The notes under the pieces were generated by a model. That model saw only the letters and a program-made list of their open reading frames with translations. It ran no database searches and was not told the origin of the DNA. A stretch of DNA of 64,000 nucleotides from Oligoflexia bacterium (GTDB lineage Bacteria > Bdellovibrionota > UBA1018). This document shows positions 24,992 through 28,683 of the stretch, in pieces. Both the position numbers and the translations under genes were made by a program. Each line of letters starts with the position of its first letter. Within the stretch, counting starts at the first letter, position 1. The stretch lies in contig JAMPXJ010000001.1 of the NCBI GenBank assembly GCA_023701205.1, positions 62,001-126,000 on the forward strand, read 5' to 3'.

Positions 24992-26662
24992 TCAGGTTCC
25001 GAACCGAAGGTCCTCGTGCGCAGGCACCCGGAGGTCGGGTGCGAGCGCTTTCGATCGTTCCTGCGGCCTGAGGTTGATGACAGGGGCCCGAGCGGTGCCG
25101 CGATCCTCCCTTCGGCCTTTGATGATCGCGACGAGCTGGCTCACCGTCTGATTCATCGAGGAGGCCTGGGCAGTCAGGGCTTCGGCACTCCGCGCGGCCT
25201 GCTCGGTAGCGGCGGCTCCTTGCTGGGTGCCGCTGTTGAGCGAGTTCACGGTTTCGGTGATCTGGTGCGCGCCCTGGGCCTGCTCTTCGCTCGCCCGCGC
25301 GATATCGCCGGCCATCTGGGAGACCTCCGTGACCTGAGTGTTGATCTCGTTGAGGACCACCTCGCATTCCTGTGCGACGCGCGCACCGGCGGCGAGTTTC
25401 TGGTCGGCATCCCCGAGAAGGCGGGAGACCTGGGACTGGGTGTCGTTTGCGATCGTCTCCACCTTTTTGACGCTGGCATCGAGCAGGGTGCCGATTTCCT
25501 TGGCCGCGCTGCCGCTCATCCGGGCGAGATTGCCGACTTCCTCGGCCACTACCGCGAAACCCTTGCCGTGCTCGCCGGCGCGCGCCGCCTCGACCGAAGC
25601 GTTGAACGAGAGCAGCTTCGTCTGAAACACGATATCGTTGATGACCTTCGTCTTTCCGCCGATCTCGTGGATCACCCCGACGATCTCGTTCATCCGGGTG
25701 TTGCTCTGCTGGATCTGGCGTCCGATCTCCTCGTTGCTCCGGGTGATCTGTCCGATGGCCTCGAGCAGGTCCTTGACCACCGCCTTGCCCTTGAGGCTCG
25801 AGCTTTGGCTGACGGCGGTGAGCTTTGCGGCCTGCTGGGCATTAGCGGCATTCTGTTGGATCGTGGAGCTGATCTGAGTGATCGCAGCCGTGGTTTCCTC
25901 GAGGGAGGCGGCCTGTTTGGTCGCCTGGCTCGAAAGCTCCGTGCTCGCGCTCGCGATCTCGAATGAAGCGGAGCTCACGCTGTCGGAGCTGCGGCCCAGA
26001 TCCGCGATGACCTGGCCGATGTTCGTGTTGAGCTTTTTGAGGACCGCCGCGGCGAAAAGACTGGTGCTGCCGATGCCGATAACGCTCATCAAAATGATCC
26101 AGAATCTCGCAGATTCGAAGTCCTCGGCTTCCTCGCGGATGGCATTGTCGATCTTCTCCGCGTTGTACCGGATCAGCCAGTCGTAATCATTTTCAATGGA
26201 GCGGCGGAGAGCCGCCCCGGTATCGCGGCTCAACGTGATCGCGGTCTTGATTTCACCGCTTCGGGCGGCTTGGCTGATGCGCTGGTAGTTGGCGAGCCAC
26301 CTGTCGAAATTCTCCTTGATCCGGTCGCGAACTTCCTTGCCCTGTTGGTTCGCCAAGGTATAGCCATCGGCGGCGAGGCCATTCCATTCCTTGACGAGGT
26401 CAGTGATCCGTTGCGCGATCTTTTCCCGATTTTCGGGCTGCTCCTCGAGGATATAGTTCTTTTCGTTGATCGTGATCTCGCGGCCGATGCTGTTCATCAG
26501 CCGGGCGTTTTCGGCGCGCTTGATCATCACTCCCGTGATCTCGCGTATGGAATTCTGGGTGACGCTCAGATGATACAAGGCGAAACCGGTCAGCGCGAAG
26601 CAGGTGACCGAAAGCAGGGCGATCAGCAGTGCGATCCGGGCGTTGAGACTCAGGGAACTCAT
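24992..26662 (-). CDS. Methyl-accepting chemotaxis protein with four-helix-bundle-type sensor
   Basis: This is a transmembrane chemoreceptor that signals through CheW/CheA to the flagellar motor. In 556 residues: TM1 about 8-29, a helical periplasmic domain about 30-185 ([28 protein letters not shown], 4HB_MCP-like), TM2 about 190-212, then a coiled signalling domain with the conserved tip [39 protein letters not shown] see only a short linker and no clear full HAMP domain after TM2. The C-terminus ([11 protein letters not shown]) does not match the CheR-binding pentapeptide. Ligand unknown. It is convergent with rpoD. Confidence 0.92.
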
Positions 26663-26804: not shown

Positions 26805-26881
26805 GGGCCTTTAGCTCAGCCGGTTAGAGCGGTCCGCTCATAACGGATTGGTCGTAGGTTCAAGTCCTACAAGGCCCACCA
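26805..26881 (+). tRNA. tRNA-Ile2 (CAU anticodon, lysidine-modified)
   Basis: The 77-base cloverleaf has acceptor GGGCCTT pairing AAGGCCC, D-arm GCTC...GAGC, anticodon stem CCG/CGG with loop CT-CAT-AA (anticodon 26839-26841), T-arm GTAGG-TTCAAGT-CCTAC and an encoded CCA end. A CAU anticodon could be Met, fMet or Ile2. The ATAAyvvnTTGGTCG...GGTTCAAGTCC pattern and overall match to E. coli tRNA-Ile2, and the lack of initiator features (mispaired 1-72, GGG/CCC anticodon stem), favour Ile2, which reads AUA after TilS modification. Confidence 0.9.
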
Positions 26882-27075
26882 CCTTACCCCTCCTGAGCAG
26901 CGCACTTTAAAAGCCAGTCTCATTACTCTCTCTCATACAAGTGGTGTCGGACCCGGCCATCCGGGCCTGAGTGCTCACGGGCCATCCCTGGCCCGCACGA
27001 GTCCTCACACTTGTATGAGAGAGAGTAATGAGAGTGGCTGGCAACGCATCCCACTCAGGAAGGGTAAGGTGGCCT
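26871..27075. repeat. Large inverted-repeat element immediately downstream of tRNA-Ile2
   Basis: A perfect 26-base inverted repeat (26918-26943 and 27008-27033; arms begin TCTCATTACTCTCTC) is extended outwards by GCCAG (26913-26917 with 27038-27042), TCCTGAG, ACCTTACCC and AAGGCC, reaching into the last bases of the tRNA on the left and 27075 on the right. The 64-base centre holds further stems: CCCGG-CCAT-CCGGG (26952-26965) and CGGGCCA-TCCC-TGGCCCG (26978-26995). No ORF or transposase is inside. It may be a MITE-like element, a structured RNA, or a terminator protecting the tRNA from the convergent chemoreceptor transcript. Confidence 0.8.
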
Positions 27076-27099
27076 TGATTGGAGCCGGAGCTGTCCGGG

Positions 27100-28683
27100 C
27101 TAGCTATCCGCCCGAACGACCCCGCCGAGCTCCGCGACGATCGTCTGCAGCTGGCGCGCCTGCTCGAGCAGCTCGCCTGCATGCTGCGCGGTCTTGGCGT
27201 AAGTCTTCTCGTTGCTCTCGTTGGTGCGCTCGAGCTGCGCCAGGGCTTTGCCGATCTCCTCGCTGCCGCGGGTCTGCTCCTGGGCCGCCGAACGGATCGA
27301 GCCGCTCCGTTCGCTCGACTCGGCGGCCTTCGTCGCCACCTCGTCGAGGATGGCGCGACAGCGGTCCGCCACGGACTGGCCTTGCTCGAGTCGTGCCTTG
27401 CTTTCGGTCAGGAGAGCCTGGGCGCTGCTCTGGATCTCGACCGAAATCTCCTGCACCGCGCGGGTGCTCTTGTCGATGATCTCCGCGATCTGCGCGGCCG
27501 AATCGCCGCTCATCTGCGCGAGCTTCCCGACCTCCTCGGCCACGACCGCGAAGCCTTTACCATGCTCGCCCGCGCGCGCCGCCTCGACTGAGGCGTTGAA
27601 CGAAAGGAGCTTCGTCTGGAAGACGATATCGTTGATGATCTGGGTCTTCGCCCGGATCTCCCCGATGATCTGGGTGAGGCTCGCCATCTTTTCGGAGTTG
27701 TTCGTGATCACCTTGATCACGGATTCGTTGCTGCCGGCGATCTGCTCGATCGCCCCGGTCATCTCGCGCATGGCTTCCTGCCCTTTGGTCGCGAGCAGCT
27801 TGGTCTCGTCGGCCACGGCGCTCGAGCGATCCGTGTCGGAGGTGGTGCGATGGATCATCTCGTTCATCTCGGTGATCGCCGCAGCCGTTTCCTGGACGGC
27901 CGAGCCCAGCGTCTCACCCGCGTTGGCGAGTGACATCGAAGCCTGGCTCACGTCTGACGCCGTATTCGTCAGCTTGCCGGACTCCTCCTTGAGCTTCTGC
28001 ATCGCCGTCTGCACCGGAATGACGACGCCCACGAGCTGTCTCATGCCGATCCCGAGCGACATCGCGATGAGCACGAGGAAGGCGACGGTGAAGTAAATGA
28101 GGTTTTTGGATCGGAAGGCCGAGATCTCCGCCTGTACGTCATCGACATAGACGCCGCTGCCGATGATCCAGTTCCAGGGCTTGAAAAGCTTCACATACGA
28201 GATCTTCGGCACCGGAGTGTCGTGGCCCTGCTTGGGCCACATGTAATCGACGAAACCATCCCCGGACGAGGTGGCGACCCGGACCATTTCCTTGAAGAGA
28301 AGTTTTCCGTTGGGATCCTTGTTATCGCTCAGGTCCTTGCCATCCAGCTCGGGCTTGAACGGATGCATGATCATCTTCGGCTGCGTGTCGTTGAGCCAGA
28401 AATATTCCTCGCCCGAGTAGCGGAGTTTCGAGATCGCGGAAGCGGCCTCCCGCTGGGCCTGCTCGAGTGGCAATATCCCGGAGGTTGCCTTCGCGTGGTA
28501 GCCCTCGAGAATCCCGAAGGCCGACTCGACCGCGATCCGGGTGGAGTCCTGCTTGGCTTGGGTGATGCGATTGCCGATCGCGGGCAAGGTGTAAAAGAGG
28601 AAAAGCAGGACCATCGGAAGCGAGGCGACCAGCGTCAGCGCGGCCGTGAGCAGCAGAGGGCGGAGATTCTTCGTCGGGATCAT
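27100..28683 (-). CDS. Methyl-accepting chemotaxis protein with single Cache (sCache_2) sensor
   Basis: A 527-residue chemoreceptor. TM1 is about 10-33. The periplasmic Cache_2-type domain (about 34-190) contains [53 protein letters not shown] and [24 protein letters not shown], typical of receptors for small carboxylates. TM2 is about 195-220, followed by a methyl-accepting coiled coil with the tip [31 protein letters not shown]. The signalling tip is nearly identical to the neighbouring receptor, while the sensors differ. The inverted-repeat element lies just beyond its stop. Confidence 0.93.

Follow-up and report, generated by a model that had tools for sequence, protein, structure and literature searches.

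TwoAYGGAY (RF01731), which is filed as a cis-regulatory RNA, consists of two hairpins with (A)YGGAY-type loops atop a long outer stem of variable sequence, and its authors, who gave no role for it, rated it as 'probably' an RNA (Weinberg et al. 2010, PMC2864571). MITEs and other small repeats, such as ERIC, RUP and Correia/NEMIS, are short, non-coding, dispersed intergenic imperfect palindromes, and the members of a classical MITE family share most of their sequence. REP/BIME sequences are extragenic palindromic hairpins, often in tandem, and their genomes sometimes carry RAYT (TnpA-REP) genes; REPs measure 20-40 bp and bear a conserved tag. Integron attC sites are recognised less by sequence than by their folded shape; their stems are variable and the sites occur in tandem arrays, with conserved outer boxes and a variable tip. 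The terminal repeats of parvoviruses (AAV-type) form the ends of genomes with a replication protein, and the arms of their stem are kept identical by snap-back synthesis.

The window, which is the whole stretch of 64,000 nucleotides analysed here, contains a near-perfect DNA palindrome of about 200 bases (about 26871-27077) directly 3' of a tRNA gene. This gene was labelled 'Met (cat)' by ARAGORN; judging from its sequence, it is likely a tRNA-Ile2 of the lysidine type (CAT). The features of the locus are as follows.

26805 to 26881, + strand: likely tRNA-Ile2 (anticodon CAT) with encoded CCA (ARAGORN; Rfam tRNA, 71.6 bits); the 3' strand of its acceptor stem is the outer edge of the palindrome.
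26871 to 26897, + strand: left arm of the outer inverted repeat, made of the 3' strand of the tRNA acceptor, CCA and CCTTACCCCTCCTGAG (sequence, inverted-repeat search, fold).
26898 to 26917, + strand: left loosely paired stretch, the gap between outer and inner repeat (fold; the three-layer pattern is also present in the pairing profile of the family).
26918 to 26943, + strand: left arm of the inner inverted repeat, 26 bp and perfect, the hypervariable layer of the family (sequence, inverted-repeat search, arm comparison).
26944 to 27007, + strand: conserved core of 64 nt, common to all copies, with the two hairpins CCCGGCCATCCGGG and CGGGCCATCCCTGGCCCG (Rfam, covariance model).
27008 to 27033, - strand: right arm of the inner inverted repeat, the perfect complement of 26918-26943 (sequence, inverted-repeat search).
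27034 to 27053, - strand: right loosely paired stretch, the gap between inner and outer repeat (fold).
27054 to 27077, - strand: right arm of the outer inverted repeat, which terminates in the inverted copy of the tRNA 3' end, TGGCCTTG (sequence, inverted-repeat search, fold).

These features agree with the original prediction, which had described a perfect 26-base inverted repeat (26918-26943 / 27008-27033) around a gene-free 64-base core of two GC-rich hairpins, continuing outward until the tRNA end reappears inverted near 27070. The inner repeat and its 64-nt spacer are present in the sequence, and the self-alignment of the palindrome extends over 65 nt on each side with 82% complementarity (26879-26943 / 27008-27072). 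The tRNA end CAAGGCC..A (26870-26878) recurs as the inverted copy at 27070-27077. The fold also yielded the two GC-rich core hairpins, CCCGG-CCAT-CCGGG and CGGGCCA-TCCC-TGGCCCG, and no credible protein gene was found inside the palindrome. When folded as a single strand, a check that had been proposed at the outset, the region 26860-27090 reached -133.5 kcal/mol, 12.5 standard deviations below dinucleotide shuffles (-75.5 +/- 4.6 kcal/mol; z = -12.5, 0/200), which places the palindrome far beyond chance. As modelled, the element can adopt a T-shaped hairpin or a cruciform, with a long stem and two small hairpins at its tip. The palindrome separates the tRNA from a convergent chemoreceptor gene; two chemoreceptor genes, at 24992-26662 and 27100-28683 and both on the - strand, bracket the tRNA and the palindrome. 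The gene rpoD lies near tRNA-Ile2 in the congener G001 as well.

With regard to TwoAYGGAY, the window copy was aligned with RF01731 over the full length of the model on the - strand, with 31.8 bits (E 0.002-0.006) against a gathering cut-off of 43 bits. This cut-off was reached by no match, the scores being 31.8 for the window, 29.7 and 18.4 on contig C38, 40.6 at locus L127 and 36.6 at L109. The features of the family, namely a long outer stem and two hairpins with AYGGAY-like loops, are present, and the loops on the - strand read AGGGAT and GGATGG. An isolate of the gammaproteobacterium Parahaliea mediterranea has nine RF01731 matches below the cut-off, which exhibit the same anatomy of perfect variable arms and two hairpins. 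The window element works like the group behind RF01731 and may be a member of it; in contrast to the filing of this family as a cis-regulatory RNA, our data favour a dispersed DNA palindrome that resembles a mobile element. Matches to microRNA families of Rfam (MIR538, MIR7533 and others) were discarded, as they were far below the cut-off and reflect only the long hairpin.

A search for further copies, also proposed in the original prediction, revealed that the element is not single-copy. A DNA search of its own genome returned weaker matches that cover the core only, and these sites were found to have the same anatomy with unrelated arms. A covariance model was then built from six copies and run on 143 Bdellovibrionota genomes, which resulted in about 110 matches in 24 of them. 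The genome of the window (G000) has 16 matches, corresponding to about 15 copies, and its congener G001 has 14; there are 14-16 copies per genome in G000, G001 and G014, and 8-16 in several genomes. Coordinates were compiled for 99 matches, and arm mismatches were counted over 96 elements. The expectation of multiple copies with shared ends was borne out in part: the copies are numerous, but their common part is the core, the arms are hypervariable, and conserved terminal repeats are found in genus g30. A search of plasmids with the element gave no match. A genome-wide scan for the core pattern returned mostly unsupported matches, with L173 (= G001) as the only clear member according to the model, and one contig from a pattern search of viral contigs (L180) was rejected, as the covariance model gave it no support. 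Several contigs end at element repeats. The end of contig C39 and the start of contig C20 of G000 overlap by 20 bases of element sequence, which suggests that the two contigs adjoin each other and that the break between them falls within a tandem array at tRNA-Leu(TAA).

Within a genome, the copies share 77-88% identity in the core, whereas identity in the innermost 20 nt of their arms is 44-57%, compared with 40% for unrelated arms (95th percentile 55%); arm identity is a shift-tolerant measure here, the outcome of which varies with the placement of the stem end. Despite this near-random identity between copies, the inner arms of each copy are near-perfectly self-complementary. The most clear-cut example comes from genus g73, where an orthologous site precedes the SRP RNA gene; its flank is 90% and its core 80% identical, while the inner arms are 32% identical without gaps and 47% with shifts tolerated, and yet form perfect stems of 18-37 bp. 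Other g73 members lack the element at this site; these empty sites could be losses, and no transposition event was seen. The outer arms are conserved where they correspond to native flank. Arm pairing declines with distance from the core, from 96-97% at 0-20 nt to 87% at 20-30 nt and 76% at 30-40 nt, and climbs again in the outer repeat, a climb that is partly a property of local alignment. The pairing is best beside the core, which fits copying begun at the hairpin tip. No description of such arm hypervariability was found in the literature. At two loci just upstream of the SRP RNA gene (L207 and L209, from G109 and G127), runs of N are located exactly at the hairpin tip, with the perfect arms ACCCAAATTTCTCTCTATGG on either side; these runs represent either bases that were withheld or gaps left in the assembly where the hairpin is difficult to read.

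In the genus of the window, copies immediately follow the genes for tRNA-Ile2, Ser(TGA), Leu(TAA), Pro(TGG), Gln(CTG), Gln(TTG), Arg(CCT), Arg(CCG) and Ala(TGC). The tRNA-linked copies are always on the tRNA strand, with the tRNA upstream on the core strand, and the chance of six tRNA-adjacent cases of the same orientation in one genome is ~1e-15 under a rough model. Several tRNAs are followed by two tandem units, the second of which has the tRNA 3' end duplicated at its start. Tandem units are bounded by copies of the 3' ends of tRNA-Ser, -Arg and -Leu, and inverted tRNA fragments are found after the palindrome. At L050, L052 and L096, tails of ~150-200 bp between tandem units contain extra small hairpins (CATCC/GGATG loops) and inverted tRNA fragments; such tails give the impression of repeated palindrome formation. 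Outside the window's genus, the majority of copies lie away from tRNAs. The non-tRNA loci have 30 convergent versus 9 divergent neighbour pairs (p=0.001), and their codirectional neighbours show no strand bias (14 versus 20).

The outer limits of the element follow the locus in the window's genus, where the outer ends track the local tRNA end. In genus g30 (G043/G050/G052), the copies are discrete units of 183-191 bp at unrelated loci with a conserved 17-bp terminal inverted repeat, GGCCTCGTTCACTGTTG, and inspection of their flanks by eye revealed no target-site duplication. The palindromes of G014 can reach 74 perfect bp and take in the 3' ends of neighbouring genes. Given that the G014 palindromes hold gene 3' ends and that the window copy holds a tRNA end, flank sequence has been copied into the opposite arm. 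Among the loci L104-L113 of G014 there are cases, such as L107, in which both of the convergent genes terminate within the palindrome, and the C-terminus of one of the two proteins is therefore probably supplied by the element. On contig C10 of G000 (L048:561-1377), two copies enclose an MqsR/MqsA-like toxin-antitoxin pair in the manner of a small cassette; these copies have identical cores and inner arms and are 1451 bp apart.

When compared with the known repeats, the elements resemble MITEs in being dispersed and non-coding and, in g30, in having terminal inverted repeats, although no target-site duplication was seen. Unlike the members of a classical MITE family, they share only the core (in g30 also the ends), and their inner arms are almost unrelated. 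REP/BIME sequences are similar in their palindromic, often tandem hairpins, but an association of a RAYT gene with flanking repeats was not found: the core was absent beside the RAYT genes examined, and a RAYT-type Y1 transposase was rejected as a general partner, since it occurs in 15 of the 24 carriers and 74 of the 119 non-carriers (p=1, 143 genomes). The variable stems, tandem arrays and toxin-antitoxin pair are reminiscent of attC sites; in contrast to these, it is the tip that is conserved here and the inner stem that varies. A fixed position and orientation at tRNA 3' ends, together with a copy of the tRNA end, is shared with tRNA-integrating elements. However, no integrase was found within the element or as a recurrent neighbour gene, and no recurrent cargo or neighbour gene of any kind was found across the copies. 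The T-shaped self-complementary stem with two tip hairpins, as modelled, would be a structural analogue, and only that, of AAV-type terminal repeats, whereas the elements are internal chromosomal repeats.

In E. coli, long palindromes are cut by the nuclease SbcD. Matches to SbcD (TIGR00619) were found in 23 of the 143 Bdellovibrionota genomes, and in 14 of these the score exceeded the curated cut-off. All 23 are among the 119 non-carriers, and the 24 carriers have no match (p=0.014; p=0.13 with the curated cut-off only), a comparison that is strongly confounded by ancestry. Since P. mediterranea has both SbcD and the elements, loss of SbcD is not required for their presence and was rejected as a requirement.

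The locus thus belongs to a set of copies with a dispersed conserved core, locus-specific matched arms, inverted copies of the flank and a preference for gene 3' ends. We consider it probable that these copies are non-autonomous, MITE-like dispersed DNA hairpins, the arms of which are rewritten and homogenised by template-switch copying. This explanation upholds the miniature mobile element guessed at in the original prediction, in view of the many copies with a shared core, their fixed orientation at tRNA 3' ends and the discrete units with terminal inverted repeats in one relative. Inverted-repeat arms and hairpin stems are known to arise, and to be homogenised, through template switching (PMC8794818; for E. 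coli, PMC7202029). In the elements, a hairpin would form when the region is single-stranded, as in replication, and the nascent strand would snap back and copy one arm into the other by replication template switching. Such copying would keep the arms complementary, would carry any change to both sides and could push the palindrome outward into the flank. This outward extension would explain the inverted tRNA end in the window and the protein-gene ends elsewhere. Spread to new sites would presumably depend on a trans-acting enzyme with specificity for the two-hairpin core. Template switching alone accounts for the matched arms; it does not account for an inner arm that outpaces both core and flank. 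The element is explicable without any host function.

A structured RNA, i.e. TwoAYGGAY as first proposed, produced either out of the tRNA transcript or from a separate promoter and with a stem kept by selection on the RNA, is in our view unlikely. The conserved core with covarying stems would fit an RNA, as would the sub-cut-off RF01731 match on the - strand (31.8 bits) and the word 'probably' in the source paper of the motif (PMC2864571). However, if pairing was selected in RNA, G.U mismatches should far exceed A.C mismatches. The arm mismatches of the 96 elements, read on the core strand, comprise 142 G.U, 142 A.C and 289 transversions, while the tRNA acceptor stems of the same loci, a small control, have 2 G.U and 0 A.C. 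As G.U and A.C are equal, the arms bear no RNA-strand signature, and the absence of a G.U preference weakens the structured RNA that the original prediction had put forward as an alternative. Taken by themselves, the inner arms show a slight excess of G.U when read on the opposite strand (43 versus 25, p=0.04), and the core hairpins lean weakly to the core strand (12 G.U versus 4 A.C); given that these hints are small and strand-contradictory, the core may still have a role as RNA. The wholesale replacement of arms between orthologs, the unrelated arms of dispersed copies that have no consistent gene partner, and, away from tRNA loci, the lack of a consistent strand with respect to adjacent genes (codirectional 14 versus 20) also speak against an RNA. 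Equal numbers of G.U and A.C would likewise be predicted if pairing were needed on both RNA strands, as in a bidirectional terminator or insulator between convergent units, in which both RNA strands must form the hairpin. The 30:9 ratio of convergent to divergent neighbours and the position of the window copy, with the tRNA on one side and a convergent chemoreceptor gene on the other, are consistent with this function. Nevertheless, it is improbable as the main explanation, as a terminator makes the conserved two-hairpin core and arms of 50-165 bp superfluous, no U-tract follows the palindrome at 27078, the g73 element lies upstream of the SRP RNA gene, and the conserved terminal repeats of g30 would be unexpected. 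What stands of the very strong terminator originally suggested is a possible side role as a strong bidirectional terminator.

We assign a low probability to a site-specific cassette, in which a recombinase of the tyrosine or integron type would act on an attC-like folded hairpin and recombine units of ~350-400 bp into tRNA 3' ends. The fixed orientation at tRNA 3' ends, the tRNA-Ser, -Arg and -Leu arrays with tandem units parted by copies of the tRNA 3' end, and the MqsRA-type pair between two identical copies on C10 would suit such a cassette, but most copies of the relatives are not at tRNAs, conserved outer sites of the attC type were not recognised, tandem units can also arise by duplication, and no recombinase is linked. 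The perfect inner stems of ~20-40 bp with a conserved tip, unrelated in sequence between copies, could also be those of an shRNA-like guide locus, with the hypervariable stem as the guide and the core as a processing handle. This is very improbable: the inner arms of the window's genome match nothing elsewhere in that genome, the arms tested against 50,697 phage records gave no match, and the RNA-strand signature is missing. A guide or spacer origin of the arms was therefore rejected. A chimeric fold-back produced by assembly has a negligible probability; contigs that end at repeats and the N runs at the tip in two assemblies (G109 and G127) would point to it, but this reading is already contradicted by the same architecture in the single-contig genomes of g73 and in the isolate of P. 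mediterranea, and by the recurrence of the conserved core across independent assemblies.

The palindrome of the window is a real dispersed palindromic DNA element, a variant of the small bacterial repeats with unusual arm evolution. It is conceivable, though doubtful, that the copies represent a class of mobile elements whose stem is not passed on as a fixed sequence: the element would move as a T-shaped hairpin of single-stranded DNA, or be rebuilt from one, this hairpin would prime the copying of the flank to which it is joined, the arms would be derived from the target and rewritten in place, the two-hairpin tip would be the only heritable recognition signal, and TwoAYGGAY would be reclassified. 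If the explanation as DNA hairpins with arms rewritten by template switching is true, a listed candidate RNA family would be better read as a dispersed DNA hairpin, and compensatory changes, the usual proof of RNA structure, would here come from DNA copying. This raises the questions of which enzyme recognises the tip and of how long such palindromes persist. The copies would then constitute a natural record of template switching, in which orthologous arms have changed almost wholly and are still perfect complements.
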